Shown here in pieces: positions 1-64,000 of a stretch of DNA of 64,000 nucleotides. This DNA is from Allacma fusca (Eukaryota; Arthropoda; Collembola; Symphypleona; Sminthuridae). The stretch covers positions 8,184,001 to 8,248,000 of the forward strand of contig OX359246.1 of assembly GCA_947179485.1 (NCBI GenBank), written 5' to 3'. Each line of letters begins with the position of its first letter. The stretch's first letter is position 1. The notes under the pieces are model-generated. The model was not told where the DNA came from. It worked only from the letters and a program-made list of their open reading frames with translations, and did no database searches. The position numbers and the translations under genes were made by a program.

Positions 1-430
1 AGTTGAAACGTCATTTCAAAACTGAAGATCTGGACAACGTAGAGTCTTTGATGCGGAATAAAATTGAGGAAACTTTCAGTCAGGAACTTACTGGAGGTAG
101 ACTTGTTGTGTTCTCTTATGAAGAATGATGTTCTTATTCCTAGGTTCAGTGTATTGGTAATGGCACGGCCATCAAAACTAGTGCTCTATATATTGCTCTA
201 TTTGTTTTGCAGGCGAAAGTATAGCCAATAAACATGATTTCGTCCAGGCTATGATGATAATTCAAATTAGTGAAGCTTCCCAGTTTTGTGCTCGGAATGT
301 AATACTACATTTTATTTACAAAATATCTTAAATCCAGTGATTGTGAGCTGATATTATATTTAATGTGAAATGTTGTTTCATTTAGGTTTGCAAATTGGAT
401 GCATCCAGGAACGAAAATGCTCGACTGTAG
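1..430 (+). CDS. 3' end of a copy of the array family (cut by window edge)
   Basis: Last three exons of a family member whose 5' part lies outside the window: exon 6 tail 1-96, exon 7 213-298, exon 8 386-430 with stop TAG. Splice sites and phases (phase 1 after exon 6, phase 0 after exon 7) match the intact copies. The reading frame is open. It keeps the motif LMRNKIEE in exon 6 and ends in ENARL, like the copy at 10901-12717, its closest relative in the window. An AATAAA polyadenylation signal lies at about 489-494. Function unknown; whether the whole gene is intact cannot be seen here. Confidence 0.8.
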
Positions 431-740
431 AAAATATTATACACATGTTCTGAATCCCATCTTGTGTCCTCAAACCAACTTCATTTAAAATAAATGTAAT
501 TTATTTAGTGTCGTTACCTGTCCTACATGTGAATCCTTTCTCATTTCTTTGTGATCAAAAGGGCTCACTACTGCAAATACAAACAAAATTATAAAAACAA
601 TTTGCCCTTCATGTAATTACAAAAATATCATCACATATAAAACATCATTATACTCCAGATTTTGGCAAATATTGCCTCCATAAATCCGTTGAAATGAAGT
701 CAGTAAATGTTATAAAGTATACATGCAGGGATTCACACTA
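1..740 (+). repeat. Segmental duplicate of 12283-13020
   Basis: The sequence from exon 6 through exon 8 and about 300 bp of 3' flank is near-identical by eye to 12283-13020, including non-coding text such as the run around 600-660. The two array units therefore arose by a fairly recent duplication of a block that includes flanking DNA. Confidence 0.8.
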
Positions 741-829
741 GAATGTGTCCTTTTTGAAATATATTTGCGTCTTTGTTTAGTATTCTTCCGAGAAGACTAA
801 AACTCTGCCAGAATCAAGATATTCTTGAA

Positions 830-1005
830 GGCTATTATGATACTTCAAATTGGTGATGCTTTTAAGGAAACTGCAAGGAATGTAATACTCATTTTTGGTT
901 TACAAAATGTCTTGCATCCATTGAGTTGCTAATATATTTAAATGACTTCGTTTCTTTCAGGTTTGCAAATTGGACGCATCCAGGAAAGAAAATTCTGGAG
1001 TGTAG
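830..1005 (+). pseudogene. Exon 7-8 fossil of the array family
   Basis: Only the end of exon 7 (about 830-881, followed by GTAATA) and a complete exon 8 (961-1005, ending GGAGTGTAG) remain. Both align to the intact copies, and the intron between them is still bounded by GT and AG. No upstream exons are recognisable. The sequence 5' of it (about 740-830) resembles 23125-23215, so a truncated duplicate carried its flank with it. Not expected to encode protein. Confidence 0.75.
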
Positions 1006-1677
1006 GAAATATATTTTACAGATTTTCCGACAGCGTCCATATGGCGTCCCCTCAACTTGAATGTCAAATAAAATAAATAACTTTAGTTCATGCAAATAAT
1101 CGCAGTAAAGTTGAATGCTTGCTCATCCTCATTGCGATAATTTTGGGGCTCACTATATAGCGCGCAAATACAATCATAACCATTAATCTTAATAACAATT
1201 TCAATTTCATATGCAATAAATTAATAGCTAAAAAAGTTAAAACAGAAGTTGCTTTTGCGCCCTCAAAAGTTAAAAACAAGTTTTCTGGTTGGATTTGTCA
1301 AAGGAATCAATATTCTGTTACTCAAAATGATGAAAACGCTTGAAACGACGAAAAGCAACGCTACGATATGTGTTAGCTGTTTTAGCTTTTTTAGCTATTA
1401 ATTTATTTCCAACTTTTTGATTCAAAAGCACAGATTACAATGGTATCCAATGCTAAGGGGAAAAACGATTTTCACGTCCAGTAATGTTAACAACACAGGA
1501 AAACAAATTATTTATTTCAACCATCAACAATATTAAACTAAAATATTCCTATATATATAAGCTCTGGATAATTTCCATTCCATGCCTGTTGGTTAACATT
1601 AGTTGTTCAATATCAGTTGCATATCCCGACCCCGACGGTGCTTTCAGTTTGAGGGAATTATTATGGCTTGCTTAGAT

Positions 1678-2391
1678 TGCCGGTGTCCGTTTGAAATCAC
1701 CTTCGTTCATCCTTCAGAAGGGGAACCGTTTCCAATTACCCGTTCCTTCATTGTTCAGTAAAATGAAGCCTTCTGAATATTTACCCATCCTTCGCCCTTC
1801 CTTCATTCAAATCCTACTATAATCCTTCTTTCAGACTTCAAAAATATTTAAATGCCCTTCATGCGTTACCTTCCTTCCATGTTCATTCAACACAAGTCAC
1901 AAAATCAGAGCTTTAAAATTCAAACTGCTTACCGCTGAAAAACTAATAATATTAACTGCAATTATTATTGCAGAGTATCAGTATTACTTAATGTACAGTG
2001 AAGGGAATAGAATGCTTACATGCTCCGGGTATCACGCTGCCATTGTGAGATAAGTTTTTCTAGAACAACATTAAGTAGGTCCACCAGAAAAATGTTTTTC
2101 AGTTGAGTAGCAGTGTACGTATGTATATATAATACGGTGTACGTATATGCACTTTAGTTACGGAAGGATTTTTTCTAAAATATAGGAAATGGGATTACTA
2201 GTTCCAACTTCCAACGGCGTTCGAAGGCTGTAAAATTAACATGCTCCTTCGCATTCGATTATTTCTGCAAAGAGCAGAGGCCTTCGTGCAGCCTTCCTTC
2301 CGCTCCCTTCATAATTGCCAAAGCTAACGCTTAATTCGTTCAAAGAAGCCTTTTTTGAAGGAAATCCTTCGAGAGATAGACACCTCTGGAT
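1678..2391. repeat. CCTTC-rich inverted-repeat element
   Basis: A stretch full of CCTTC and GAAGG iterations. Its ends are loosely inverted (GGTGTC near 1682, GACACC near 2383). No exact target duplication was found. It probably belongs to the same class of non-autonomous elements as 3150-4290 but is older. No gene is seen between 1005 and 3150. Confidence 0.4.
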
Positions 2392-3149
2392 TGTAGCATA
2401 TATTATGCAGATACGTCTGCTTAGCTGAATAGCATTAAGTTTAGGATTTTAATAATTTTTTTAATAGACGAATATGCATTATAAATTTGTTATCGTTTAG
2501 ATTGCAAGAATTTATGAAATTTATTAATTTTAATATTTATTGTTCAGAAAGTTAAAAATGTTGTTGACAATGATTGTTAAGGAAAACTATATTTAAGGGC
2601 TGATACCTTAAAGATCACAGTACCAAATTTTTATACTAAGGTCCTAGTTACGAAAGTCACCCTCATGAAAAATTTCAAAATCAGGGATTTCGTCCATGAA
2701 ACAGGGATTGCATCCTGTTGAAAATCCCTGGAAAAGGGAAAAATGCAGACATCGGAATTGATCAACAACGAAATCTTACTTACATTTGCTGTTACGGGTG
2801 CAAAATTCCTGTCACAACCGACTTTGTGATCCAGTGCCACTACGTTTTCCTGGACAGTATGTTGCTCATACAAATATTTTGCACAACAAATATTTATATT
2901 TGGTCAATTCAGTGTTTAGAGGCTCGGTGATGGTTCAAACGTATTCAATAGCATAAGCGGATCTCAAATGATGTTTTTTTAAAAGTCGGCATACAAGATT
3001 TCTAGGAATGTATTTTTAAATGGTCAAAACCAGGCCAGGTATTCGATCGGTTTAAAAGCATTTATTTAAGTTCCTAGTGTGTCATTGAAGAAGTTTGAAT
3101 CATCACCGAACCTCTAATGATAGAATTTACCAAATAGCCTGGGCGTACC

Positions 3150-4690: not shown

Positions 4691-5067
4691 CGTAAATTCA
4701 TCGGGATCGAACGGATGTTTTTTCGTTTCGTTCAATCATGCCTTAAATTTCTGATTCTAGGAATAAGAGTTTTGGCTAACGTTTTATATATTTTAATTTG
4801 CACTACATTGCAGTAAAAATGCTGACGAATAAGATAATTAACACCATTTTATTATTTGCTTGTAAATTTAAAAAAAATAAAGTTCATACAGTAATCTGTT
4901 ACAGTAACTCGTTACAACAGTATTCTGGAGTGCACTATTTTGTAGACCGTCCATTTCAGTTGGATTGTGTACAATTGCAATTCATTCGAGGGCATATTTT
5001 AATTGTGCTAAGCAGCATATAAAATGCTTTATTGGTAATGATGGTTTTGATTGAATAACTATTGAAT

Positions 5068-5256
5068 TTCACCAAGGTGTATTCTGTAAACAAGCATAAA
5101 AACCTATTTCAAGGCTTTTATTCTAATTTATCACTGACAAGAATTTAAAGTCTCATTTCAAATCTAACGTATGTATAAACACGTTTGCGTTTCGAGATGC
5201 GGTTTTATTCCATTCCTGTCTCTTCCTTATATGTTATAATATTTTTCCTTTTCGTG
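5068..5256 (+). pseudogene. Promoter and exon 1 fossil of the array family
   Basis: A recognisable core promoter (TTCACCAAGGTG at 5068-5079, then a decayed TATA at about 5097) precedes a degraded exon 1 starting at ATG 5197. Text such as TTATTCCATTCCTGTC and ATAATATTTTTCC matches the signal-peptide exon of intact copies. No exons 2-8 follow before the next complete gene at 6181. It is a dead 5' end left by unequal exchange or deletion. Confidence 0.65.
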
Positions 5257-6067
5257 GTTTTAAGTAAATAGTTCAGGAAAACGTTTTGGTAACATTGCAG
5301 GCCAATCCAGTTAACTTGTTGTAATTTGGGTTCAGAACATAGTCGCAGGTCAGTGGGTTTTGGTAAGATTACAAAAAATTGAAAAGGAAATCATTAAATG
5401 TCATATTACCGAACCCGTCAAAACTAGAGCAGTTGCAGCAACACATTTTATTCGAGAAGAAAGTTTCCGTCACATTTATTAAATTTTGCTTGTAGTGAAA
5501 AGTTACAAGTTTGTATTTTACAGCTTGAGAATACCCTCCATGGCCTGTTACACTGTTTCTGGGTCATACAAACGACATTAGCTGTCATGTGATTCCGGGG
5601 TCAAAAGATGAGCATGAGATCATTCGTTAATATTTAATTTTCTGGAGGCAGCATTTTAGATACACTCATTTTCAGCTTGCCGATTACCATAAGTTTTGTT
5701 ATATCTATTTTGGTATATCATGACCACATTTAATCCCGATTGGAAGCATACACTTAAAAAAGACACTGCAATGAGCCCTATATGCTTTCGTAATGTTACT
5801 TATAGCAATTAATAATTGAATGCTTAGTGAGTCGACTAATTTCCAAAATTGACATTTTCCACAATATATAATATAATGTTATAATAATAATTCCAAGCGT
5901 TTATGGAAACTGAACAATCCTAAGCAATTGTGGAAAATGCAAGTTGTCACTTCAGTGCTTCCATATCAAAAAGGGGTACATTTTATATAGAAACTCATAC
6001 AAAGGGATTGCATTAAATGTTAAATTACTGGTATACAGTCGTGCATTTGCTTGACTGACTCTTGATC

Positions 6068-6180: not shown

Positions 6181-8569
6181 ATGGTATCATTCCACTGCCT
6201 TCTGATCGTTATAATATTGTTCCCTTTTGCGGTAAGTTCATTGATAATAATAAAATTATTGATAATAAGGCACCAATCGTGGGAAACACTTTTGAATTGT
6301 ATTCGAAAATAATTTTTTAATTAAATTGAATTCCTGAATATTGTAATCATTATTCATACTTTTAATTTTCCTGACGTAATGATACATGAATTTCTAAATT
6401 TAAAAATATTTACTTCAATTATTACAAACTACAATTAGCTTGGCAGGGACAACCTCAACTGTGCTAATACAACTGGATTTCATAATTGGGAATTATGTTG
6501 TGGTGATGATATTTACTTTATGCGAGATCACATTGAGGCAATGGACTCTTGTGACGTCGAACCCCAAAATGCAACTTTAAAATTTGCGGATTCCGCAGTA
6601 AGTTTTTGGGATTTGTGTGTTTAGGAATTTAGTTAGTTGTACAGATGAAGGTAATTATTTAGAAAAATTCTAAATCTTTCAGTGGCTTGCCTATGACTGC
6701 AACGTAAGGAAACGGCTTAACTCCTCTGATCTAACGCCGAAATCTTACTTTAACTTGGTGTTACGTGGCCGCAATTCCAGTCAGAGCCTGCTTTGGAAAA
6801 CATTGACATCCCAAAATAATATTTACAAAACTTCAGCTGGTGAAGGCGAATATGACAGGATTCAAGCTATAAAATCGTATCGAAATGAATTTTTGAAATC
6901 TGCTGAGCAGGTCTGGTACATCGTTTGTACTTCCAAATCTTTCTAAACAAAAGTCGCTTACAAGACACTGTCAGCTAACAAATAGTGCATTTGTTTCAGG
7001 TGTGTGTCTTTGGGGACGCGGAATCCAATTTAGGGAAATCAGGACTAAGTAAGGTGATTATGCCGATACCAGGGGTCCACATTTTTCCAATATGAGTTGA
7101 AAGGACTTCGTGGCAATACCAATGATTTTATAATATTTTATCTTAGATGAGAGATATTAAAACTAATAATTTAATGATTTGATATTCTGTCCATAGACAA
7201 CCTTGGATTTTAAACAAAGATTTTTCAACACCCAATTTGCTATTGAGTGTAATGAAGAAATGTTACCCCATTCTGCCTATTTTGCTGGGAGATCCGACAG
7301 TGACTCATCTTACCAGCATTACATGAAATGTAAAGAGGAATTTAATCATACACTAGGGGTTGCTACTTTCGAAAGACATACTTACAGCATTGTAAGTTTT
7401 TTTTGATGGGGACGGTTTTCGTTTTTACGCGTTAATTCCTAAATACTTCGTGTCGAATTTTATACTACATTCATATAGCTTCACAAATTAAACTAGAAAA
7501 TTACATGCATTTTTGTTCTTTTTTGTTTCCAGTTCAGAATGTGTCGAGTAATAGGTTCACGTTTTGACAGAATACAAGCAGAAATCAGAAAGCCGTCGAT
7601 AGATTTCGAAACTATTGCCAGAATCATCTGCCCTGGATTTTGGTCCAAATGGGTCAAAAATTCCGTTGTAGATTCCATCCTTGAGAGGTTGAATCAAGAA
7701 TTCAAAGCTGAAAATCTGCAAAACCTGGAGTCTTTGATGCGAAACAAAGTTGAGGAGAAGATCAATCTCGAGCTTTCTCAAGGTATGCATAATTTGAATT
7801 CATAATATTACTGGGTACGAGTAGATAGTACAAGAGTAAATGGAGAAGGTTAAAAGGTTAGACAGCGGTCCAATTTACCGGGCTTTCAATGACGCTAAAA
7901 AAAGAAAAATTTCAATAGGGGTTCCCGAAATTGACTTGAACTAGCTTCATCGGGAGCGTATAAAGTAAATTATTTTCAGACATGAGAAAAAAGTTCATAC
8001 AAAAATATGAGTTTGTTAACTTCCAGCCAGACCCATTTGTTATATCTACAAGTACTCGAGGAACTACAGGACACTAATAGAATCTGAGGTATAGGTACAC
8101 GTTTCGAGTACATTACCCATACGGTTAAATTGTGGGTGCATGTACTTTAGTTTATTGTTAATTTCAAGTATTGGGCAAAGGTACTGAACCAGTTGGTACG
8201 TGCAAGAGTACAAGGTTTCTATACCCAGTTCGAGTACTCGGTTGAGTCATGAAAAAATTATACTAAACTTTTTAATTCTATTTTTTCTTACGGCTTGATT
8301 AAATTTAGGGAATTATTCCAGTATTACTTGATGTGTTTTATTATCCGATTTATTTTACAGACGAAAGATTAACCAACAAACGTGAAGTCGTACAGGCTAT
8401 AATGGTCCTTCAAATTGCGGATGTTTTTGTGAAAACTTCAAATAATGTAATATTCATTTTTATTAACAAAATCCGTTAAAATGTTTCGCATGTTAATATG
8501 TTTATTGTACTTCGTTTCTTTCAGATTTGTAGATTTGATGCAAACAAGAAGGAAAGTGTTGGAGTGTAG
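6181..8569 (+). CDS. Array family member 1: secreted cysteine-rich protein, intact
   Basis: Eight exons: 6181-6231, 6439-6597, 6683-6910, 7000-7053, 7197-7391, 7533-7782, 8361-8446, 8525-8569. They give an open frame of 355 residues. Exon 1 is a signal peptide (MVSFHCLLIVIILFPFA). Exon 2 has an NC, a CC pair and SCDVEP. Exon 3 starts WLAYDCNVRKRL. Exon 5 holds CNEEMLPHSAYFA and a second Cys. Exon 6 holds the Trp-rich FWSKWVKNSV and LMRNKVEEK; the last exon adds a final Cys. Sequons such as NSS suggest glycosylation. The exon 4 donor (AAGGTGATT) is weak, but it is the only one that keeps the 54-bp length and phase seen in paralogues. I do not recognise the family. An extracellular, disulphide-rich protein is inferred; function unknown. 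Confidence 0.85.
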
Positions 8570-10900: not shown

Positions 10901-12717
10901 ATGGCTTCATTCCACTATTTTCTACTCGTTACGACACTGCTCCCTTTTGCGGTAAAAACTTTCAATAAATAACGACTTTCCTATTATACTTGAAAGTATT
11001 TTTAAGTTCGAATATTGTAATTATACTCAAACATTTTACAAGTTCCCTGACAAAATGATACAGGAGAATCTAAGATTAAACATATACTTCAATTGAGAAT
11101 TGAATTTAGCTCGGTGGGGACAACCTTAACTGCTCCAAGATAATTAAACGGGAGGAAATTTGTTGCGATGGAGATGTTTACAGTATTGTGGAACCCATCT
11201 GGCCGGAGGAGTCTTGTAACGTCGAACCCAAAAATGAGACTTTGACATTTGCCGATTCCGCAGTGAGTACCAGGGATTTTTGTATTTAGCAATTTGATTG
11301 GATGTATCACTGAAAATAGTTGTTTTTTTCAGTGGCTTGCTTTTGACTGTAACGTTAGACAACGTCTTAACTCAACTGGTCTAACGCCGAAATCTTACTT
11401 AAATTTGCTGTTACGTGCGCGGAATTCCAGTCAGAGCCAATTTTGGGAAACGTTGAAATTCCAAAGTGAGAATTCTAAAGAGACCTTGGGTGATGACGAA
11501 TATGATAAAATTCAAGCTATAAAATTGTATCACCGTGAAAGTTTTCAAACTCTGGAGCAGGTCAGAATTGTCGTGTTAAGTCTTCAATTTTACATTCCAA
11601 AATCAGTTTCTACAAACTTTGAATTTACAAATGATGCTCCTTTTACAGATTTGTAGTTTTGGGGATGGAATTCCTACCTCTGGAAAAGCACACTTTAATT
11701 TCGTGAGTATCCTTCCTGCTAACCTTTCAATATAAATTTGAATTACTTCGTTGGAATACTAAGTGTATAATATAATGTAAACTTTATTTTAATGAGAGAT
11801 GTTAAAACTAAAGTAAATTAACTTATTTGATGCTTCATAGGCACCCACTAAATTTACAACCAGATTTTCCCGCATGCAATATTCCAGAGAGTGTAACAAC
11901 GAAACGTTACCATATGCTGGATATTTTGCTGCGACTGGCTATAGTAACGAAGGTTATGAGAATTCCAAGAAATGTGAACATGAATTTAACCAAACTCTGG
12001 GGAATCCCACTTACCACAAATTTTTTAACAGCATTGTTAGTTCTTTTGATGACGATCATTTTTTATATTTAGTTTACACGTTCTTATCTTTTAAACCGAA
12101 AACAATATATGCATTTATTTTGGCCGTTTCCAGTCCATGCTTTGTCGATCCATTGGTTCGGAAAGTTTTGACATAAAGCCGCATATCGTTAGGCCAACGT
12201 TAGATTTTGAAGGTATTGTCATGGGCTTATCTCCTACATTTTGGTCTAAATCGGTCAAGATTTCCGTTAAAAACTACATTTTGGAGGAGTTGAAACGTTA
12301 TTTCAAAACTGAAGATCTGGACGACGTGGAGTCTTTGATGCGGAACAAAATTGAGAAAAAGTTCAGTCAGGAACTTACTGCAGGTAAACAAGTTGTGTTC
12401 TCTTATGAAGAATGATGTACATACTTATTGCTAGGTTCAGTGTATAGGTAATGAATGACAAGACCATCGAAAGTAGTGCTCCATTGTTCTATTTGTTTTG
12501 CAGGTGAAAGTCAAGCCAATAAACATGAGTTCGTCCAGACTATGATGATAATTCAAATTAGTGAATTATTCCAGTTTTGTGCACGCAATGTAATACTAAA
12601 TTCTATTTACAAAATGTTTTAAATCCATTGAGCTGAGCTGATATTATATTTAATGTACGTTGTTTCATTTAGATTTGCAAATTTGACGCATCCAGGAAAG
12701 AAAATGCTCGACTGTAG
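10901..12717 (+). CDS. Array family member 2: secreted cysteine-rich protein, intact
   Basis: Exons: 10901-10951, 11110-11262, 11333-11560, 11649-11702, 11841-12035, 12134-12383, 12504-12589, 12673-12717; 353 residues, no internal stop. The signal peptide is MASFHYFLLVTTLLPFA. The mature part starts LGGDNLNC, then CC and SCNVEPKNETLTFADSA in exon 2, WLAFDCNVRQRLNSTG in exon 3, CNNETLPYAGYFA in exon 5, and PTFWSKSVKISV with LMRNKIEKK in exon 6. The C-terminus ENARL matches the partial copy at 1-430. The donor after exon 5 is GTTAGT. AATAAA lies near 12776. Secreted role inferred; function unknown. Confidence 0.85.
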
Positions 12718-13482: not shown

Positions 13483-13495
13483 TGCACGTGCAAAC

Positions 13496-15034: not shown

Positions 15035-15776
15035 TAAGTCAAGTTCAAGAGTATTCTGCAAATGAGTATAAAAACTGATTATAAAATTGTCAGTGAATTT
15101 ATTTAGAAGCATTTAAGTCCCATTTCAAATCTGACAGCCATTTTAACACGTTTTTAAATGATGGTTTCATTTCACAATTTTCTGATCCTTGCAATATTCC
15201 GACCTTCTGTGGTAAGTGTATTAACAAGATTCAATAATTAAACCAATCGTATAGGAAACAATTTCAAAATGAATTTAAGTCAGTGCTTTTGCAAACAATT
15301 TAAGTACTGTGATCATATTGACACCTTTTGAATTTTTCTTGCATATACGTAAAGCCTAAAAATAAATGTAAGGACTTTTATTAAAGCCAACGTTGAATTT
15401 AAATGGTCTTGTTGGAAGCTCCTTTACTACATTTTGGTCTAAACGGGTCCCAAATGCCTCTAAAAATTCCATCTTTGAGGAACTGAAAGAAGTTTACAAT
15501 ATCCAAGATCTTGGAAACCTGGAGTCTCTGATTCGAAACAAAATTAAGAAAAGGATCATTCACGAAGTTGCTGAAGGTATACATGGTGAGTTTTGTAATA
15601 AGGAATTATTCTTGTTGCTAGATTAGATTGAAGTAATTATTATCATCATCAAATCCTCATTTCTATTATCCGGTTTGTTTTGCAGACAAGAGTTTAATCA
15701 ACAAACGTGAACTAGTACATGTTATCTTCATTTCATATTTAGTATTAATATTGTGCTTCAGGCAACCACATCAAAT
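15035..15776 (+). pseudogene. Broken copy of the array family: exons 1, 6 and 7 only
   Basis: A promoter remnant has TATAAAAA at 15068 but an altered palindrome: the GGTGAA half has been replaced by a CAAGTTCAAGAG stretch. Exon 1 is 15158-15211 (MMVSFHNFLILAIF...). Exons 2-5 are deleted. A partial exon 6 follows directly at about 15384-15576 (FWSKRVPNASKNS, LIRNKIKKR), then exon 7 at 15686-15776, about 5 bp longer than normal and out of frame. Exon 8 is absent. It is most like the intact gene at 24250-26148, and its upstream region also matches. Functional protein unlikely. Confidence 0.8.
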
Positions 15777-16117: not shown

Positions 16118-16119
16118 CG

Positions 16120-22840: not shown

Positions 22841-22885
22841 GTTTGCAAATTGGACACCTCCAGGGAAGAAATTGGTCAATTGTAG
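22841..22885 (+). pseudogene. Exon 8 fossil of the array family
   Basis: A complete exon 8 equivalent (starts GTTTGCAAATTGGAC, ends TTGTAG) behind a normal TTTCATTTAG acceptor. The exon 7 end just upstream at about 22750 is barely recognisable. The rest of this copy is lost, apparently displaced by the repeats at 20.5-22.7 kb. Confidence 0.65.
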
Positions 22886-24249: not shown

Positions 24250-26148
24250 ATGATGGTTTCATTCCACTATTTTCTGATCATTGCAATATTGCTCCCTTCT
24301 GTGGTAAGTGCATTAACAATTAACAAGATTCAAAAATTTATTATTAAACCAATCGTACAGGAAAAAGTTTCAACGTAAATAGCAAAAAAAAACTATTTTG
24401 TAAAAATTCAAATATTGTGATCACGTTAACACCTTTTGCCCTTTTCTGACATACGTGAAATCTAAAAATAAATGTAAGGCCTTTTTTTGAAAATTTGAAT
24501 TTAGCTCGGTGGGGACAATCTGAAATGTATCAATAAAACTGAAAGCATTTTACCCTCTGAATTGTGTTGTGATGGGGATATTTACACTTTGGATTACCTC
24601 ATTCGGCCGGTGACATCTTGTAACGTGGAACCAAAAAATACGACTTTGACATTTACCGATTCCGCAGTGAGTTTCAGGGATTCATTTTTCGGATATGTAA
24701 TTGATTGAACTCATGAAGATAATTATTTAGAACACAATTATTTCATTCAGTGGCTTGCCTTTGACTGCAACGTAAGAAAACGGCTAAATTCCACCGATCT
24801 GACGCTAAAATCATACTTCAATTTGCTGGTAAAAGCTGTCAAACCCAATAAGAGCTTGCTTTGGAACAAATTGAAATTCCAAAATGACATTTCTCAAAAG
24901 ACTGCCAGTGAAGACGAATATGATAAAATTCAAACAATAAAACTGTATCAACGGGAATTTTCAGAAGCTTTGGAGCAGGTCTAGTATACCGTATTATGTC
25001 CAAGATGTTTTCAAACCAAAATGTGCTTACACAAAAACGTTTATTAATTATTTTGCTGCACGTTTTACAGACTTGTACTTTCGGGAGTATGAAATCCAAT
25101 TCCAACATGCCCATAGATTTGGTGAGTATCCTAAAATATGTTTTCTCGAATTTTTTAATAAGAATTGAAACGAATCCACACAAATAATAGCTATTTTGTT
25201 CTGTATAAATGTATGCATTACTTTTGATAATAAATTTCAAAAATAAAATAATTTAACCGCTTTTTGATAATCCACAGCTATCCATGTCCTTTAAAACCAG
25301 ATTACCTTTCTTGCAACATAACTTCCCATGTAACGGAGAAATGTTACCATTTTCTGGCTTTCATGCTGCGTATGACGACAGAAAGCTTCCGCAAGGACAT
25401 GAAATTAAATGCAGCCAGGAATTTTATAATATGCTGGGGAATGCGACGCATCACCGATATCGTTACAACATTGTAAGCACTTTTGACAGCGATTGCTTTG
25501 AGCTGCATTTTGTACCAAGTTCACACGTTGTGACATCTGAGAGCCAAAAAGTACATGTATTTTCCGTTGTTTGGTTTGTAGGTCATACTTTGTCGACCGA
25601 GCGGTCGCCAAAATTTAGATATAATAAAAGCGGAAATCAAAAAGCCAAAATTAGATTTGGAAGGTATTGTTCGAAGCTTCCTTCCGTCATTTTGGTCTAA
25701 ATGGGTTAAAAATGCCGTTCAAAATTCGATCTTTGAGGGACTGAAAGAAGAATACAATATTCAAGATCAGGGAAATCTGGAGTCTCAGATTCGAAACAAA
25801 ATTGAGGAAAGGATCAATCACGAAGTTGCTGAAGGTATACATGGTGAGTTCTGTAATACAGAATAATTCTTATTACTACATCAGATTTAAGTAATTATTC
25901 TACCGTCAAATGCTCATTTCTATTACCCGGTTTGTTTTACAGGCACGAGTTTAACCAACAAACGTGAAATAGTACAGGCTATCCTCATATTTAGTGTTAA
26001 TGATGTGTTTCGGGCAACCACAAAAAATGTAATTCTCATTTTTTATTGAAATTCCTAAAATCCATTGAGCTGTTCTAATATTTAATGTTCTGGCTTCTTT
26101 CAGATTTGCAGAATTGATGCTGATAGGAAGGAAAATGCTGGGGTGTAG
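24250..26148 (+). CDS. Array family member 3: secreted cysteine-rich protein, intact
   Basis: Exons: 24250-24303, 24505-24666, 24751-24978, 25071-25121, 25278-25472, 25582-25834, 25943-26028, 26104-26148; 357 residues with no stop. Two ATGs stand in tandem (24250, 24253); either can start the signal peptide MMVSFHYFLIIAILLPSV. Exon 2 encodes LGGDNLKC, ELCCDGDIY and SCNVEPKN. Exon 3 encodes WLAFDCNVRKRLNST. Exon 5 keeps CNGEMLPFSGF and a second Cys; exon 6 encodes ILCRPSG, FWSKWVKNAV and IRNKIEERI. Exon 8 ends RKENAGV. Exon 4 is one codon shorter and exon 6 one codon longer than in most copies, both in frame. AATAAA is near 26211. Family not recognised. Confidence 0.85.
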
Positions 26149-38279: not shown

Positions 38280-39425
38280 TTTTGAAATTTCTTGATGACT
38301 GCCAGCACACAAAGTAAATGCCCGTACCTGGTAATAGGTACATGTGAAGGACAGGTGAATGTACACACTATGGTTCACACACAAATATACGATTACGTTA
38401 TTCCAATAATCTGAAATCTGAATTATGTTCGTTATGTTAGTTTATAATCCCAAAAACACTAGGAATAAACTACTTTTTCTATTTACAAGTTTTAGAAAAG
38501 AATATTTTTTTAAAAGTACAAATATGAATGCAATTGAAAATATTTACTAAAACCAATGATAACTTCGGAAGGGATATTTTATGCAATACCAATTCGAATA
38601 CAAATGCTAAATACATAATTGAAATACCGATACAAATACCAAATGAGACCCCCATCGCAGTTTTGCACCTGGATGCAATTTTGCATATACATGTGCAAGG
38701 ATATCGCATGGAAATTTTTGAATTTTTAAAACTTGTTCCGAATATCATGCAAGCAATTTTAATATTTCAAATAATGGTCTTCTGTAATTTATTATTGATC
38801 CAAACGCACCCTTTTTCATACTTTTAATGAAATTGTCAAACTGCTCAAATTACTTTCACTAGAACTGAAATCGAGCCTACTAGCATTTGAGCCTGCAGCC
38901 TGTGCTACAGAGCGCATACATTTATCATTATCGTGTGTTACCAATAGTTGCAAGAACTACTAATACTGTGCAGTACGACTTATTTGAAATAAATGCCGAT
39001 TTAGTACCTATACGTGGATGGATGGTAATCTGAGTCTTTACTTGACGAAAACAAACAAAAATAAATTTGCTGTGTTGTCCACAACTACTCTGAACTGCAC
39101 TTTATAATAATTCATTACAATAACACTTTGGAGTGTTTCCTGCAAATCCGAATGTTATCATACCATTGTGTTAAAATCCATTTTGTCACGCCAGCTTCTC
39201 CATATAATTAAGAGACATATTTGAATGTATTTATTGCATTATACTAGTATATTAAAGAATGAATAAGGTAGTCGGGCTTCTGCTTGAATGACTCTTGAAG
39301 TCTTGAACTTCACCAAGGTGAAGTACTCTTCTAAAAGGGTATAAATATCGACGCCAGGGATTTAAATCTCATTATTAACAAGAAGATTCATAAAAGCTGA
39401 CGTAAATGTTTTGGACGGTACGACA
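38280..39425. repeat. 5' flank of array member 6, duplicated at 55.53-59.40 kb
   Basis: Phrases such as TTTGAAATTTCTTGATGAC, AGCACACAAAGTAAATGCC and CTAGCATTTGAGCCTGCAGC recur in order at 55530-55600 and 58850-58870. The sister block carries a 2.7-kb insertion (55945-58679) that this one lacks. No gene lies here; ORFs on both strands around 38480-38830 are shadows of the same repeat. Confidence 0.7.
39309..39348 (+). promoter_or_regulatory. Core promoter: palindrome plus TATA box
   Basis: A perfect TTCACCAAGGTGAA (39309-39322), then TATAAATA at 39340, 17 bp apart. The upstream block CATTACAATAACACTTTGGA lies near 39113. Confidence 0.8.
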
Positions 39426-42163
39426 TGTCGGCTTCATTTCATTGCTTCCTGATCGTAACAATATTCTTCCCATTTGCAGTAAGTACACTAAGGAGATACT
39501 ATAATTTCCGACCATAATAATTTCCATATAATTACCATATAATTTCCATAATTTTGGAAGACTTTTTAAAATGTATTTTAAAAACGATATTATAAGATAT
39601 TTAACGATATTTTATTTAAAGATATGATAAGATATTTAACGATATTTTATTTAAAGATATGATAAGATATTTAACGATATTTTATTTACCGATATTATAT
39701 GTCAAATATTATAATCATTTGGATACTTTTTAAACTTTTCCTGCAAAAATGACACTAAAATCTAACACTAAACGTTTTTATTTAATTTTGAATGTGTTAG
39801 CTCGGCGGGAACAACCTCAACTGTGGCAATAAAACTGAAGCTAAACCCTGGGAACTTTGTTGCGATGGCGAAGTCTACCTTATTGCAGATCCCATTCGGG
39901 CGTCGGAATCTTGCAACGTAGAACCCAAAAATGCGAATTTGACCTTTGCGGATTCCGCAGTAAGTTTTAGGGATTTTTTTCTGGTACGGTTGTTGACAAT
40001 TATTTACAAAGAAACTAAATCTTTCAGTGGCTTGCCTATGACTGCAACATAAGGAAAAATCTTGGCTCAACTGAGCTAACGATGCAATCTTATATGAGTT
40101 TACTGTTAAGGGCTCGCAATTCCAGTCAGAGCATCTTTTGGGAAGCATTACCATTGCAAAGTAACATTTCCGAAAATACTGTGGGTGAAGACGACAATGA
40201 AAAAATTCACACAATCAGATTATATCACCGTGAAGGTTTGCAAGCTCTTGAAGAGGTTAGGCATTTCGCATTTATTTCCACAATAATTTCGCAAATCATC
40301 ATCAGCTTCCCCACGGACTTTTAGTTAGCAAATCTTGAATTTTTTATAGTCTTGCACTTTTGGGGGTGATACTTCTACCGTTGGAAGAAGCGGCTCTAAT
40401 CCGGTAAGTGTTCTCTTTTCCAGGAAATTCATTATTTATTGGATACGTGCGATAACATTTATTACAATATTAATGCACAACTTCCTTTGACTGTTTGTGC
40501 TTTATCTTTGATGAGTGTTTTTAAAACAAGTACAAATCATCCCATTTGATACTCCATTAGATGTCCGTGGATTTTAAAACCAGGTTTTCTAGCATTCAAT
40601 TTTCTCAGGAGTGTAACAATGAAATGATACCACCTTCTGGCTATTTTGCTGAGAGTTACAATAGAGACTCAACCCACGCAAATTTCTCTAAATGTATAAA
40701 GGAATTAAATTATACTCTGGGGAATGTTGCTCAACATAGGTATCGTGGCATCATCGTAAGTTGTTTTGATGGAATTACTTTCAACCATTTTCACCTACTT
40801 TCTCATTGTTACCAGTGCAAATTTAACATGAATTAAGGAGTTCTTACAACTGAAACCGTGCTGGAATGTGTGTTGTTCGTTCCCAGTATCCACTTTGCGA
40901 AATAGTTCATTTTCAAGACATGGACCTAGTAACTTTACAAACGCAAATAAAAACTGAAGCGTTAGATTTCTCGGTTGTTGTCCCAGGATTCTTCCCTGCA
41001 TTTTGGTCTAGATGGGTCAAAGATTCTGTTAACAATTTGATGCTTGAGGAGCTGAAGCTTGAATACAAAGCGCGAAATCTGCTAAACCTGAAAGTGTTGA
41101 TGCGCCAGAAAGTTGAGGAACAGATCGATCAGGAATTTTCTAATGGTAAATGGGGTGAGTTACCTTGTATAAATTCTGCTTTAATAAGTTCAAATGAATA
41201 TTCCATTCTCACAATGTGTTTATAGCTCCTTATTGAGTGATTACCTTGCGGAACCGTACTCGAACTCGTACTCGAAATCGAAGCATCGAGTATGGACTCC
41301 AATCCAAGGTACTCGTACTCGCCACATATACGAGTACTCAGGAAAATACTTGAAATAAGCGGCCGAGTTCCAGTTCAGAACCCGAACTTGTTTCATACTC
41401 GCGAGTACGGAACTGTGAATACCGAAATCCCGTACTCGTACTCGTGCCGTGACTCGAGTCTTCATACTCGAGTATTTAATAATAACAAGACCACAATTGA
41501 ACATTGATTTTTAATTAACTAATTGTTTTAAATTTAATAGTAATGTACTAAATGGAGAGAGAGTATACTTTGAAACCTGAGAGAGTCGTGACTGGTGGAT
41601 ACAACGATTTTTTGTGATAATTTCATATTAGCGCCTTCGTCTCTTTACTGGAAATTCAAAAGTTTGCAACACTTGTGTGCACGTGTACGCGTATTTGTAT
41701 ATTGAGCATGTGATACCCGAACTCGAACTCGATAACCCTTATGAGTATTTTTGTAGGACTCGTACTCGTTTGATACTCGTACTCGTAAGTATGTAAAAAA
41801 TCGTTACCCGTACTCGAAACCCATTTCAAGTATTGAGTATTCACAAAAATTTGACCGTACTCGACTCGAACTCGTACTCGTACTCGATACTCGCCGGTAT
41901 ACTCGAACTCGATAAGGAGCTATAAATGTGTTCTATTTTCTCATTTCTTTTCCAGGTACACGTATAACCAACAAAAATGAATTAGTGCAGGCTATTCGGA
42001 TCCTTAATGTTTATGATGCTTATCGGAAAGCTGCTGGGAATGTAATACTATTTTTTGTTGTCGAAATTGTATTACGCGATTGAGCTGTTCTTGTATTTAT
42101 GGTATTTTTTTTCAGGTTTGCAGACTTGATGCATACAGGGAAGAAAACGCTGAAGTTTTGTAA
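39425..42163 (+). CDS. Array family member 6: secreted cysteine-rich protein, intact
   Basis: Exons: 39425-39478, 39801-39959, 40028-40255, 40350-40403, 40561-40755, 40887-41154, 41956-42041, 42116-42163; 363 residues, no stop. The signal peptide is MSASFHCFLIVTIFFPFA. Exon 2 encodes LGGNNLNC, ELCCDGEVY and SCNVEPKN. Exon 3 begins WLAYDCNIRKNLGST. Exon 5 encodes CNNEMIPPSGYFA. Exon 6 is six codons longer than in other copies (a DMDLVTLQTQ insert) and keeps FWSRWVKDSV. Exon 8 is one codon longer and ends EENAEVL. Intron 6 is stretched to 801 bp by a transposon at 41221-41924, leaving the splice sites untouched. Intron 1 holds a 35-bp tandem repeat (39582-39690). The sister gene is at 59400. 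Confidence 0.85.
39582..39690. repeat. 35-bp tandem repeat in intron 1
   Basis: About three units containing AAGATATTTAACGATATTTT and ATTTAAAGATATGAT. The array is absent from intron 1 of the sister gene at 59.5 kb, so it expanded after the duplication, or was lost there. Confidence 0.75.
41221..41924. mobile_element. hAT-like non-autonomous element in intron 6, TSD AATGTGTT
   Basis: Ends are TATAGCTCCTTAT at left and ATAAGGAGCTATA at right. The exact 8-bp duplication AATGTGTT lies at 41213-41220 and 41925-41932. The interior is almost wholly GTACTCGAACTCG-type iterations in both directions, so ORFs on either strand are artefacts. The sister gene has the unoccupied site CACAATGTGTTCTATT at about 61021-61036. 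A related piece lies at 62373-62465. Confidence 0.9.
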
Positions 42164-45059: not shown

Positions 45060-45630
45060 GGCGACAGTTTAACATACAACCGTATAAACGCAATCAGGAT
45101 GCTTCAAATTCCTGATGTTTTACGGAAAACTACAAAAATGTAAAACTTATTTTACATTTAGTGTACTTCATTTGTTCCAGTTTTCCACATTGCATGACAG
45201 GGGTCGTATTTTGGTGGGAGTGCGCGTAGATTATTTACAGAGAAAAACATTTTCTGACAGGGAAATATCAAAGGGAAGGGAATTAGTTTTACGAACAGGA
45301 AGTTTTAAATTGGTTGACATTTTCATTCACAGGGATTTTTAAATTTGTTGACGTGCTTAAGGGATATTTGTTGTACAAACAGGGAATTTTACATTGGTTG
45401 ACCTAATTTGGCAGGGATTTGACGTCTTATAAGGGAATGGTTTTTGTCGACAGGGATTTTGAAAATCTTTGACCATGTTTTCAGCAGGAATTTTGAAATC
45501 GTTGATGACCTCCATGCAGGGATATAATTTTCAGTAGGGAAATTCAGAAATGATCTTCCAGGGAGATCTACAAAAATCCGACCCCTGTGGGACGCATACA
45601 GGAAAAAATATTCTGGAGTGCATGGAATAA
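45060..45630 (+). pseudogene. Exon 7-8 fossil of the array family, split by an insertion
   Basis: An exon 7 relic (45060-45141: GCGACAGTTTAACATACAAC..., then GTAAAA) is preceded by a good TTTTGCAG acceptor. Exon 8 is represented by TTTTCCACATTGCATGA (from about 45181) and, beyond an insertion of about 390 bp, by GACGCATACAGGAAAAAATA (45591 on). A further degenerate exon-7 acceptor region recurs near 45735-45775. Not functional. Confidence 0.6.
45198..45587. mobile_element. hAT-like MITE inside exon 8 fossil
   Basis: Ends are CAGGGGTCG at left and CGACCCCTG at right. The interior repeats CAGGGATTTT and TTGAC units. It sits exactly within the exon 8 relic. No target duplication survives. CAGGGGTCG-type ends are common among hAT elements (established for the superfamily). 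Confidence 0.6.
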
Positions 45631-54616: not shown

Positions 54617-54639
54617 CTATACTAAAATATATAATAAAC

Positions 54640-55944: not shown

Positions 55945-58679
55945 CCCAGTCAGCAAAATAATGTCGCCCCAACGTTAGTTCAACGTTGAGAGTAATTTTA
56001 ATGTTCGCCCGCGCCTATGTGTTCGCTTTTCGTCCAAATACAATGTCAACTTAACGTGGCTTCAAATGCATTGCTTTAACGTTAGCCAAGTGCCATATTT
56101 CAACGTTGTATTGATGTATGTAATTGCAACCAGGGACGGGATATCGGAAACATATGGATTTAAATACTGATTCGAATACTTTCTAATTTCGATTTCAATT
56201 TTAATTACTTTTTTTAATACTTAAAAATTTGAATTCCGATACGAATTCTAATATATTTGAATACTTCTGGAATTTGGATTCCGATTCAAAAACATTTTTG
56301 GGATATTCTTACAAAAAATGGGAATTTATTTAAACGAACAATTTAATCGCAAAAACATAAGCTATACATAGCGCATCAAGCGTTTCTAAGCTAAATTACC
56401 ACGCAAATCATTTAAGATAATTTAAACGCAAAAAACACACGCTCAAGAGAAATTTGAGTAATCGGGAAAGCAAGGAGTGATTCCATAACATTTCTAAAAA
56501 ATTCGGAGCAATCTGTTAACCTGCCTGACTACTTCATACTACATGATGAGATCAAAAAGTAACGAGGAACTTGATTCACTTAATAGTCCTGTAAGACAGA
56601 CACCATACGGCTATCTCATCCTGTTTGTAAGAATTTTTGCAAAACGGACTTCATCTCACTGCCCATTAACAAGCAAACACTTTTCGTTTGCCAAACGTTC
56701 GTTACTTAGCCTTTGGATTTTATAATAATTGCATATTGCATGTGTGCGGCTTCAAAAAATGCTTCCTATGAACATTTTATCGCACGTGGCAGTATAAACC
56801 CCAATGAAATCGATACTTTATTGGAATCGGAATTCATAAAAAAATATTCGAATACCGATTCGAATACCCTTGTTTTTATTACAATCCAATTTTGGATAAA
56901 AATACCTTTGTGAATTTTTTTCCGATTCCAAAATCGATTCGGATACCCAAATTTTTTGAATATAATTCCAATTCTAATTCCGATTCGAATTCGAATTCCC
57001 GTCCCTGATTGCAACAATCATTAACGACGCCCCACAACACAGATCCAGCATTGTTAGCACTTCGCGCAGGCAACGTTACCCCACGTTTGCTAGCATTTCT
57101 CTAACGTTCGCAAAAATTTAACGTACAATCAAACACTCGTGCTTTTTTCTTTTACTTTAGCCATTACTTCAGTTTCTCATCTCGGCATGGCCAACATGTC
57201 TTCTCCCGTTTGTAAAGTTACTACGAAGCCATTTACTGTTAAGTTGTTATTTAAAAACGCTGCATGTGTTGTTCCAAGTAAATAGGTTTGTATTGACCGT
57301 CAGTCATGTCAATGGCCAGAATTTTCTGGGTCAAGTTTACCAAAATAATTTCAACCCGAACTGCAAACCTAACATCAAGAAAGGAAATTATATTCCAGCA
57401 ATGTATTAGCTATATTTACTAAGTGTTTTTTAAAACCGAGTACTAATGAAATGATTTTCAATACATAAATGCCTCAAGCAAAAAATGAAGGTATGCTAAT
57501 AAATTTTTTAATTTAGTTTCAGACAATCTCGCGTCAGACCGAAAAGCAGAAGATAACCCTCTAGACACATTTTGCGTGGAAATTGATTTGGAGGAGGAAC
57601 CAGTGCCAACAAAACACTGAACGCGCCGACCCAAACAAAACCATGCCGAAATCAAAGCCGGAGGAGTCGAAGGGCGACGCAAATACGTTTTAAGGCAAGA
57701 AATCATATCAGAGAATTCTATTACCATTAGTATGTTTATAATTATTCAATGTTAGGTAGTAATTGATAATATTGTTGCAGGAGAGATGTATTTCTTTCTA
57801 TTATTAAATATATAATAATCTATTTAACTTTATACTAAATGTAGATTTGGTTTGCAAGTGTAAAACAACTCGCACTTTGACGTTTATTTAAATGTTTATA
57901 TCTTTCAAAGGTTCCTCAAGTAGAAGCCATCGAAGTGAATCATCACTTGGATTCTGGAACAACTAGTGACTCCGCATTTCAGGTAGACGTTCCCCAGTAA
58001 TTTGAAGAAATTATTTCTCAGAATAAAATTACAGTGGAAAAGTAGAACCAAACAGATTCATCAGGGGAATTGATTAAGCAAATACTGGAATGTCGGAGAA
58101 TACATATGTATCATACAGTGAACTTTCTATAAGGGAACCCCCTATAAGATGATTTTCAAATAATGGTTTCGAAAAATGTGAAATGTATTTTTAACACTAG
58201 AAGGGATATTTTTAAGTTATTGTATATTTATATTGTTCACCACAATAATATATTCACCTTTAGTAATTTTAAATTTTAGTACAATAAAATGTAAATATAT
58301 ACTTCTTCCATTAGATTGTGATGGTGAATACACTTTCATCCCATTTGTGTATTCAATAGTGTCGAAAGAAATAAAATTGTAATAATTCATTTTTTTGAAA
58401 ATTAAGTTGTTTTTGAAATCGCTCGATATTTATCAGCATACATATAACCAACGTTGTCATAGCATCGCCCCTGTCGTCATAGCGACATCGCCCAGATGTT
58501 CATCTTGAGTAGCCTATATGTATATAATTGACTCTACAGCATGTCTAAGTACAACTTCCTGGCAACGTTGCTGCGCTAACAGTATTTATGGTATGCAGGC
58601 GCGGCCATTACTAACTCGAGCCTAACGTTAGCGTTTCTACGTTGGATTTACGTTGCAGTGCTGCCCTTTGCTGACTGGG
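55945..58679. mobile_element. 2.7-kb element with 13-bp inverted ends, AACGTT-rich
   Basis: Ends are CCCAGTCAGCAAA at left and TTTGCTGACTGGG at right. Both sub-terminal zones (55970-56110 and 57040-57130; 58440-58660) are rich in CAACGTT and AACGTTAG motifs. The sister flank at 38.70 kb lacks it, confirming an insertion. No clear target duplication. A plus-strand coding remnant at about 57515-57620 (SDNLASDRKAEDNP... to KH stop) is unassigned. The element itself is interrupted by the hAT-like element at 56131-57007. Confidence 0.7.
56131..57007. mobile_element. hAT-like non-autonomous element, TSD ATTGCAAC
   Basis: Ends are CAGGGACGGGA at left and TCCCGTCCCTG at right. The exact 8-bp duplication ATTGCAAC lies at 56123-56130 and 57008-57015. 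The interior near each end is made of GATTCGAATTCCGATTC-type iterations in opposite orientation. The ORF at 56766-57017 (minus) is a by-product of these. Confidence 0.9.
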
Positions 58680-59399: not shown

Positions 59400-61267
59400 A
59401 TGTCGGCTTCATTCCATTACTTCATGATCGTAACAATATTCTTCCCTTTTACAGTAAGTACACTAAGGAGATACTATACTTCAACCAATCATTGGGAAGA
59501 CTTTTTCAAATGTACTTTAAAAACGATATTTTCTTAAGGTCAAATATTATAATCATATCATATTTATACTTTGCCAGCAGAAATGACACCGTAAAATCTA
59601 GCACTAAACTTTTATATTTAATTTTAAATGTGTTAGCTCGGCGCGGACAACCTCAACTGTGGCAATAAAACTGAAGCTAAACCCTGGGAACTTTGTTGCA
59701 ATGGCGAAGTCTACCATTTTACATCCTCCATTCTACCGTCGAAATCTTGCAACGTACAACCCAAAAATGAGAATTTGACCTTTGCGGATTCCGCAGTAAG
59801 TTTTAGGGATTTTTTTCTGGTACTGTTGTTGACAATTATTTACAAAGAAACTAAATCTTTCAGTGGCTTGCCTATGACTGCAACGTAAGGAAAAATCTTA
59901 GCTCAACTGAGCTAACGCTACAGTCGTACATGAGTTAGCTGTTGAGAGCTCGCAATTCCAGTCAGAGCGTCTTTTGGGAAGCATTACCATTCCAAAGGAA
60001 CGTTTCTGAAAAGACCGTTGGAGAAGACGACTTTGTAAAAATTCAAACCATCAGAAAATATCACCGCGAAGGTTTGGAAGCTCTTGACGAGGTTAGGCAT
60101 TTCCCATGTATTTCCACAATAATTTCGCAAATCATCATCAGCTTCCCCATGGACTTTTAGTTAGCAAATCTTGATTTTTTATAGTTTTGTACTTTTGGGG
60201 GTGAGAATTCTACCGCTGGAAGCAGAGGTCATAATTCGGTGAGTGTTCTCATGTTCAGGAAATTGATTATTTATTAGAATAATAATTTACAACTTTCTTT
60301 TATTGTTATACTTTACCTTTGATGAGTATTTTTAAAACAAGTTTAAATCATCCCATTTGATACTCCATTAGATGTCCATAGATATTACAACCATATTTTC
60401 TGGCATTCAATACTACCAGGAGTGTAACAATGAAATGATACCACCTTCTGGATATTTTGCTGGGAGTTACAATAGAGACCCAGCCTACTCAAATTTCACT
60501 AAATGTAAAAATGAATTAAATTATACTCTGGGGAATGTTACTCATTTCAGATTTCGTAGCATCATCGTAAGTTTTTTTTATGGAATTACTTTCAACCATT
60601 TTCACCTACTTTCTCATTGTTAGTAGTGCAAATTTAACATGAATTAAGGAGTTCTTACAACTGAAACCGTGCTGGAATGTCTTTTGTTCGTTTCCAGTAT
60701 ACACTTTGCAAAATAGTTCAGTTTCAAGACATGGACCTAGTAACTTTACAAGCGCAAATCAAAACTGAAGCGTTAGATTTCGCAGTTGTTGTCCCAAGAT
60801 TCTTCCCTGCATTTTGGTCTAAATGGGTCAAAGATTCTGTTAAAAATTTGATGCTTGAAGAGCTGAAACTTGAATACAAAGCGCGAAATCTGCTAAACCT
60901 GAAAGTTTTGATGCGCCAGAAAGTTGAGGAACAGATCGATCAGGAATTTTCTAATGAAGAATGGGGTAAGTTATCTTGTATAAATTCTGCTTGATTAAGT
61001 TCAAATGAATATTCCATTCTCACAATGTGTTCTATTTTCTCATTTCGTTTCCAGGTACACGTATAACCAACAAAAATGAATTAGTGCAGGCTATCCGGAT
61101 CCTTAATGTTTATGATGCTTATCGGAAAGCTGCTCGGAATGTAATACTAATTTTTTTCTGACGAATTTGTGTTACTGAATTGAGCTGTTCTTGTATTTAT
61201 AGTATATTGCTTTTTTCAGGTTTGCAGACTTGACGCATACAGGAAAGAGAATGCTGAAGTTTTGTAA
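59400..61267 (+). pseudogene. Array family member 7: one nonsense codon, otherwise intact
   Basis: Exons: 59400-59453, 59637-59795, 59864-60091, 60185-60238, 60372-60566, 60698-60965, 61055-61140, 61220-61267, matching the gene at 39425 one for one, with the same long exon 6. All splice sites and phases hold. The only lesion seen is TAG at 59936-59938, codon 96, where the sister has TTA. Without it the product would be 363 residues. Cysteines, the WLAYDCNVRKNLSST motif, CNNEMIPPSGYFA and FWSKWVKDSV are all kept. It is either a very young pseudogene, a null allele in the sequenced individual, or a base error. Introns are nearly identical to the sister's, while exons 2-5 differ much more. Confidence 0.8.
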
Positions 61268-61269
61268 TT

Positions 61270-62050: not shown

Positions 62051-62327
62051 AGGTGTCAATCACCCGATTTATTTACCATAGTAAGGAAAACCTACTCGCT
62101 CCCTCCTCATTGAATATGCCAAAGCACATAGCTCGAAATTACTATGCCAAAACGTATGATAGAGCAACGCATTTTGAAGAACGAGATTACGCCGGTATGT
62201 GTCATCACCTGTCATCCCAGCTGAGTCATAGGAAAGTAAACATGAATATTTTTATTCTTATGCAATTGCAAAGTAAATCTTATTGCAAAACGTAATGGTG
62301 TGCTACATCATCGGATTTATTCTGTAG

Positions 62328-62376
62328 GCGGCAGTTTAACCAACAAACGTGAAGTGTTACACTCTATTATAGCTCC
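62328..62376 (+). pseudogene. Exon 7 fossil of the array family, cut by a repeat
   Basis: After a TTATTCTGTAG acceptor, GGCAGTTTAACCAACAAACG and GTGAAGTG match exon 7. The match ends at TATAGCTCC (62373), where DNA related to the 41221-41924 transposon begins. The unit corresponds to the fossil at 45060. Confidence 0.6.
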
Positions 62377-62470
62377 TCACGAGTACGAGTAGATACTCGA
62401 GTTTCGAGTTCGAGTACGAGTAGATACTCGAGTTTCGAGTTCGAGTACGAGTACGGGTCGAGCACGGTAT
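62373..62470. mobile_element. Fragment of the CTCGTACTCG element family
   Basis: Begins TATAGCTCCT, as the element at 41221 does, then GAGTACGAGTAGATACTCGA iterations to about 62465. The right end is missing; the dispersed repeat shared with 54.8 kb follows. Confidence 0.6.
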
Positions 62471-62479
62471 CAACTTAAA

Positions 62480-63190
62480 TTGGTACTTGTACTCGTCGGT
62501 CTAGTACAAGATCTACCTTATTTGCGGGCAATTCGAATGACTTTTGGGTACCAAATCCGGTATGAGTGTAATATTGACCTAGGAGGTCACAGCTAGGTCA
62601 TCGTGTCACAAAGTGGAACCAAACTTGACAGGCAACTCATCTGGGCTTACACCAAAAGTTCTACTCTATTTGCGGGCAATTCGAATGATTTTTAGGTACC
62701 AAATCCGGTATGGGTAAGATATTGACCTCGGGGGTCACAGCTGGGTCATCGTGTCGCAAACTGGAACCAAACTCGGCACACGTTTAATTTGTGTCTAATT
62801 AAAGCCCTAATTTCAATCTGGGCCAGTTTTGTCACCGTTTAGATTATGAAACAGGTATGGACGCTCTTTGACCTCTTGAGGTCAGTATCTTGGAATTTTG
62901 AGGTCATATCTCGCTGAATTTTTTTTGCACGTTGTTTAATTTTTATTCTTGCCATTTTTGAAGTTATATTGCTAATTTTCAGTTTGAATTTTTTGGTACC
63001 CCATGAGCCCCCCCCCCCCCCCTCATTTTTCGCTAACTTTGACCCGGGATATCTCCGAATCCCGTCGTCAGATTTTTTCGGGGCAATTATCAAAAATGAT
63101 CTACGCATCAAGGCGCACCCTGCAGTAATCTTTTCGTTGAAATCGAACAGAGGGCTTTTTCTCGTAAGGATTGTGCGGTGTCCTTTATTG
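62480..63190. repeat. Dispersed repeat shared with 54820-55350, partly duplicated
   Basis: Two head-to-tail copies of the first 170 bp (62515-62640 and 62655-62800) are followed by the remainder, including a C-run at 63008-63022. ORFs of 109 and 124 codons on opposite strands at 62839-63298 are by-products of the repeat. Confidence 0.65.
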
Positions 63191-63869
63191 CTTATTATGT
63201 TCGTTGACACCACAGAATTTGTGGATACTTCGTACGGGTCTCGTAAGGTTTCGGAAATGTGGCATTACTGTCGTACTATAAGTTTCAATACGCTATAGGT
63301 GGAGTCCTTATTAATGATATTTGTTTGATAGAGACGGTATAATGACGACAAGCTTCAAACGAAGTATAGGCTGACATTCAGCAAAATTTAAAAATTTCAA
63401 TAATAATTGAAGTTGTTCATACAGATTGTGCGAACACCCAATGAACACCCGTGAACATATTGAACGGGATCGGGTAACTGCACGCATTTTTACGTATTTC
63501 GAACTCACAAAAACTCCCAAAAAATCGAAGGTTACAAAAATTTTGAACCCCCATCGTATCCGAACACGATTACGATCCCATTCAGACGCTACTTAAGTTA
63601 ATACAAATATTAAGCAAAATAAGTTTCAATAAGTCCTTAAGTTTTGGATGGTTCACAACTACTTTAAATTGCATTTTATAATAATTCATTGCAATAATGA
63701 TTTCGAGTGTTTCCTGGAAGTCCGAATATTATCACGGCATTGTGTCAAAATCCAGTTTGTCACGCCAGCTTTTCCAAATAATTAAGAGACAAACTTGATT
63801 GTAATTCATTGTTCTAGTATATGTAAAAGGATGAAATGGTTGTCGTGTCTCTGCTTGAATGACCCTTGA

Positions 63870-64000
63870 ACCTCGCCAAGAGAAGTACTCTTCCAAAAGG
63901 GTATAAATACCGAGGCCAGGGATATCAGTGTCATTATTAACGAGAACTCTCATTTCAACTCTTAAATACATTTTTTAAACGGTACGACATGGCGGTCTCA
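63870..64000 (+). CDS. Start of a further array family copy (cut by window edge)
   Basis: CCTCGCCAAGAGAAG at about 63870-63884 is a degraded form of the promoter palindrome. TATAAATA lies at 63902, and ATG at 63989-63991 opens MAVS, matching the MSAS or MVS starts of exon 1 in other copies. The upstream block CATTGCAATAATGATTTCGA at 63690 also matches the 39 and 59 kb units. Only four codons lie in the window, so whether the gene is intact is unknown. Confidence 0.65.

Follow-up and report, generated by a model that had tools for sequence, protein, structure and literature searches.

What kind of gene is repeated along this stretch of a springtail genome, and do its copies look alive? The stretch is 64 kb of Allacma fusca contig OX359246.1 (positions 8,184,001 to 8,248,000, forward strand), called the window below; for the chromosome-level assembly of this species, section 5 of PMC10427803 gives a size of 392.8 Mb. 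The original prediction had described a tandem array of an unrecognised, secreted, cysteine-rich gene family, lineage specific and expanding. We consider it quite likely that the window holds a tandem array of genes for secreted, N-glycosylated, disulfide-stabilised and probably mostly helical proteins, which are known so far only from A. fusca.

We observed 11 gene loci and about 7 fossil places in the window, arranged head to tail and all on the plus strand (Table 1). Six copies are intact (B, C, E, G, H and I) and one is near-intact (J); D and F are broken, and A and K run off the window edges. When 61 exon peptides were compared with the window by tblastn (E ≤ 1e-4), 268 non-self matches were found, none of them on the minus strand, while 21 control sequences (20 shuffled windows and one reversed) gave a single match in total. 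The placed exons and these matches show that the earlier tally of intact, near-intact, broken and edge-cut copies and fossils, all on plus, was right. The fossil at about 5061-5260 is at a position that the original list did not mention.

Eight exons were placed in each of the seven full-length copies (B, C, E, G, H, I and J). All 49 of their introns are GT-AG, and the intron phases 0,0,0,0,0,1,0 are identical throughout, which bears out the eight exons and shared phases that had been proposed. Intron lengths are 68-322 nt, except for intron 6 of B (578 nt) and of I (801 nt). These two introns (7783-8360 in B and 41155-41955 in I) are enlarged by inserts with GTACTCG-like motifs; in the other five full-length copies intron 6 measures 89-120 nt.

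The proteins of the intact copies have 353-363 residues, and each carries five to seven N-glycosylation sequons. In all eight joined proteins (B, C and E-J), the strongest hydropathy stretch is N-terminal, within residues 3-20: the best 13-residue mean is 2.05-3.17, compared to 1.38-1.89 for the runner-up stretch. This hydropathy-based prediction agrees with the signal peptides claimed earlier and, going by such sequence features, secretion of the family is supported. The signal would direct the protein into the secretory pathway and be removed near residue 19; from residue 20 on, the products are 38-39 kDa with an isoelectric point of 5.2-8.3. Ten cysteines are invariant across the six intact copies, and B and C each have one extra. 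The inner spacings are nearly constant (0, 16, 20, 71, then 32 or 33, 26 and 23). The distribution first reported (NC, CC and C in exon 2; one each in exons 3, 4, 6 and 8; two in exon 5) was exact, and the conserved motifs quoted with it, including SCNVEPKN, FWSKWVK and LMRNKIEE, are present. The ten cysteines could form up to five disulfides before the protein is released.

Are these proteins known from elsewhere? A database of 5.8 billion proteins was searched once with a single sequence and twice with profiles (E ≤ 10), which returned two, six and eight relatives, respectively. These amount to eight distinct proteins (P0001-P0008), each labelled Allacma fusca. They share the exon order of the window copies, and the same cysteines where covered, but as models they are incomplete: each is truncated or gapped and is missing the exon 3 interior. 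The partial model P0008 is 100% identical to gene C in exon 2, and the fragment P0005 is 98-100% identical to gene H in exons 1, 2 and 4; judged by these identities, P0008 is gene C and P0005 is gene H. The best exon 2 identity of P0001, P0002, P0003, P0006 and P0007 to any window copy is 53-67%, and these are probably family members from outside the window. A tree was built from 15 rows, of which four were filled to less than half. In it, C formed a strongly supported group with P0001, P0002, P0004 and P0006, I fell with J, and G fell with H and P0005, while B, E, F, P0003 and P0007 were poorly placed. By eye, P0004 is near A in exons 7 and 8.

Family databases did not name the proteins. The six intact copies and P0001-P0006 all stayed short of every Pfam cut-off, and C had no Pfam match whatever. 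The strongest weak match was Bin3, in copy E only (E 0.00025, 22 bits compared to a cut-off of 27), and was treated as chance. The same judgement was made of the other matches below the cut-off: RPA_interact_N and HTH_Mga in H, Nlig-Ia in G, DUF5497, CT_584-like and DUF4817 in single deposited proteins, and three single-exon Pfam matches. We also treated as chance an NCBIfam match to methan_mark_9 in one of eight members (E 0.0064) and six chains from a PDB profile search (best E 0.78). An Rfam scan of the window at gathering scores gave no matches, and no description of this family was found among literature titles and abstract starts. With no Pfam cut-off reached and only isolated weak matches in NCBIfam and PDB, the family is as unrecognised as had been thought.

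The deposited models raise a question of their own. None of the eight contains the interior of exon 3; P0001-P0004 are also missing a portion of exon 6, and in P0008 exons 4 and 5 are read in a different frame. Could the real protein be shorter, with the exon 3 interior (and a portion of exon 6) removed by splicing? Agreement among all eight models speaks for this, as do possible donor sites: five models end exon 3 directly after a conserved Cys-Asn, where six of eight window copies have a GT, and the other three break off somewhat before that point, at a second GT that is present in C, G and H. However, G and I lack the first GT, and I lacks the second as well. The models also restart exon 3 at differing places. 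The interior itself is conserved as protein: its pooled ratio of nonsynonymous to synonymous differences (pN/pS) is 0.43, compared to 0.64 in the exon 3 flanks. Because the interior is better conserved than its flanks and the models resume inconsistently, we read the shortening as prediction error and regard a shorter product as very unlikely.

Copies of the array also share their 5' flanks. In an alignment of ten flanks, 40 of 207 columns are invariant, including the core of a TATA box. A near-palindrome, TTCACCAAGGTGAAGTA (CTTCACC-AA-GGTGAAG), matches the window 14 times at up to three mismatches, compared to 0.17 matches expected. Eight matches each precede the start codon of a copy by 113-125 bases (B, C, E, F, G, H, I and J). 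Of the remaining six, one stands before the 5.1-kb fossil, two are the opposite-strand reading of the palindrome, and three lie elsewhere on the minus strand, within exon 7 or an exon 7 fossil. The near-palindrome stands upstream of the TATA box (for example, at 6068-6084) and is kept before the stop-bearing J and, with three mismatches, before the broken F. It is a possible binding site. Most copies would be driven by their own promoter, in which the near-palindrome sits some 120 bases upstream of the start codon and is followed by the TATA box; given such a shared promoter, the copies would probably share a tissue of expression.

Taken as a whole, pN/pS is 0.68 (bootstrap 0.61-0.75), and the family is under weak purifying selection. 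Constraint is strongest at the exon 2/3 junction (0.26, codons 61-85). Two local values exceed 1, namely 1.10 where exons 5 and 6 meet and 1.03 late in exon 6, both given without a significance test. Duplication tracts join G with H (2.5 kb at 79%) and I with J (1.5 kb at 89%), and the 5' flanks of D and E are alike over 0.9 kb (77%). These tracts match what would be expected from repeated unequal exchange. We infer that the array gains copies by unequal crossing-over between neighbours and loses them through stops and deletions. Of the phrase "lineage-specific expanding", the first part is provisionally supported within database content, where all eight relatives are from A. fusca; the second is better put as birth and death, because six intact copies stand beside three broken or interrupted ones and about seven fossil places. 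The best reading of the family history is fast, birth-and-death evolution.

Table 1. Gene copies and fossil pieces of the array, in window coordinates
Feature	Positions	Strand	Details
Copy A, edge-cut	3..427	+	exon 6 end 3-98 (tblastn E 6.8e-08), exon 7 212-298 (E 9.4e-13), exon 8 386-427 (E 4.5e-05)
Fossil exons 7 and 8	825..996	+	tblastn E 0.001 and 0.0004
Fossil exon 3 piece	2765..2845	+	tblastn E 0.008
Fossil promoter and exon 1	5061..5260	+	near-palindrome at 5068, 3 mismatches; weak exon 1 match at 5202, E 0.91; read by eye
Copy B, intact	6181..8569	+	eight exons, 355 aa; splice sites, phases and translation
Copy C, intact	10901..12717	+	eight exons, 353 aa
Copy D, broken	15158..15741	+	exon 1 15158-15205 (tblastn E 0.003), partial exon 6 15384-15578 (E 4.7e-15), exon 7 remnant 15688-15741 (E 0.12)
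Fossil exon 8	22841..22882	+	tblastn E 0.023
Copy E, intact	24253..26148	+	eight exons, 356 aa
Copy F, broken	28075..29195	+	exons 1-5 only; donor after exon 2 shifted by one base
Copy G, intact	30131..32116	+	354 aa
Copy H, intact	35490..37501	+	354 aa
Copy I, intact	39425..42163	+	363 aa; intron 6 of 801 nt
Fossil exon 7 piece and doubtful exon 8	45060..45620	+	tblastn E 0.009; E 12 (exon 8, at 45588)
Fossil exon 2 piece	58530..58598	+	tblastn E 0.003
Copy J, near-intact	59400..61267	+	eight exons, in-frame stop in exon 3
Fossil exon 7 piece	62327..62380	+	tblastn E 0.007
Copy K, edge-cut	63649..64000	+	5' flank with TATA box, and first codons; 80% identity to the J flank

The E-values of the fossils (0.0004-0.023, and 12 for the exon 8 piece at 45588) are single values, uncorrected for 21 queries. 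Other rows for exons 2, 3 and 5-8 with E above 0.03 were set aside as chance. The exon 7 remnant of D was retained because the DNA around it (15383-15828) is 82% identical to E.

Other elements lie among the copies. Parts of a Harbinger/PIF-like transposon occupy 51719-53504: an open reading frame (ORF) for a DDE_Tnp_4 endonuclease on the minus strand (52998-53504, E 5e-22) and a Myb/SANT-like ORF on the plus strand (51719-52003) that falls below the Pfam cut-off. Between D and E, at 17862-19125, three plus-strand ORFs resemble pieces of a multi-pass membrane protein. From the look of the sequence they are perhaps a chemoreceptor gene; no Pfam receptor family matched them, and the one ORF searched against PDB had no match. 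A 26-bp satellite (15936-16118, seven copies at 94%) directly follows the broken copy D. A 315-bp element occurs twice, at 13182-13495 and 34328-34641, and its two copies, 95% identical, are closer to each other than the gene duplicates of the array are.

Several points weigh against our reading of the array as genes for secreted, disulfide-stabilised, mostly helical proteins of one lineage. The family is known here from DNA and deposited sequences alone. Its restriction to this springtail lineage is provisional because, although all eight relatives are from A. fusca, the number of other springtails among the 5.8 billion proteins was uncontrolled. D and K have no near-palindrome at three mismatches. 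A scan with a TATA consensus of our own making was not above chance (four matches compared to 1.68 expected), so the TATA box is read from the flank alignment alone. Structure prediction, which covered the deposited proteins and single exons, gave weak models. That of P0001, built with 35 further, mostly partial rows, has a beta hairpin around the CC pair followed by helices (mean predicted local distance difference test score, pLDDT, 56; predicted template modelling score, pTM, 0.32). The exon 6 model has four helices (pLDDT 65, pTM 0.36). Neither model supports a fold assignment, and when the weak P0001 model was compared by Foldseek, none of its 15 matches had E ≤ 0.001. Finally, any role in an external secretion is argued by analogy only.

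Might the array instead be dead, or derived from transposons, and have no functional product? It contains many broken copies and fossils, it has a Harbinger-like transposase in the same window, and its constraint is weak. However, six copies are open across eight exons with canonical splice sites, pN/pS stays below 1 over its whole bootstrap range, and the 5' flanks are conserved. We regard a dead array as extremely unlikely and conclude that this secreted gene family of one springtail lineage is real, fast-evolving and, by its look, active. Could that family be an old one in disguise, so far diverged from a known helical carrier or hemolymph family (odorant-binding or takeout-like) that sequence comparison no longer shows the kinship? 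Such families also occur as tandem arrays, and the products here are predicted to be secreted and, in the weak P0001 and exon 6 models, to contain helices. Against this, the six intact copies all fall short of Pfam cut-offs, the classical odorant-binding spacings C-x3-C and C-x8-C are missing in all six, and Foldseek offered nothing significant, albeit with a poor model. Hidden kinship of this sort seems to us improbable.

What would a new secreted family be used for? By analogy, the likeliest role may be as one constituent of a secretion, external or in the gut, that comes into contact with microbes, food or predators, which we propose only tentatively; in such a secretion, many slightly differing copies would pay off. 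Tandem copies, secretion signals and single windows with pN/pS close to 1 or just above it are also typical of reproductive proteins, and the array has all three, if its two local values of 1.10 and 1.03 are counted. Perhaps, then, the copies encode a male or female accessory-gland secretion diversified by sexual conflict or sperm competition? The whole-gene pN/pS of 0.68 is clearly below 1, and the two high values are single-window values. We think this unlikely, if less so than a diverged carrier. Taken together, we infer that an external or reproductive secretion is the likeliest use overall of the secreted, cysteine-rich proteins that the array appears to encode. A further-reaching possibility, on balance doubtful, is that they form a new extracellular family with a novel disulfide-bridged fold that arose within the globular springtails, is switched on as a set through the palindrome and TATA box, and serves a trait specific to these animals, for example courtship and sperm transfer, or a secretion used in defence or made by the collophore.

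Annotation of springtail genomes is thin, and here is a sizeable secreted family of which all deposited models are incomplete. Orphan secreted families of this kind are common in animals. Correct gene models would make expression and proteome data readable, and would turn the array into a tractable example of the birth, duplication and loss of such a family. Should a role in mating or defence prove true, the family would be tied to globular springtail biology.

How do the proteins compare with known systems? They resemble the insect 27-kDa hemolymph glycoprotein and takeout-like families in being secreted (as predicted here), in their broadly similar size and in their frequent duplication; unlike those families, the intact copies have no matches to the corresponding Pfam models. 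Arthropod odorant-binding proteins are likewise secreted, helical, cysteine-bridged and often in tandem, a likeness that, for the helices, draws on our weak models. Odorant-binding proteins have six cysteines, with the spacings C2-x3-C3 and C5-x8-C6, and a six-helix fold around a buried ligand pocket. Neither diagnostic spacing is found in the six intact array proteins, nor do they reach a Pfam cut-off; and whereas odorant-binding proteins have 120-150 residues, the array proteins have about 355 residues and ten conserved cysteines.

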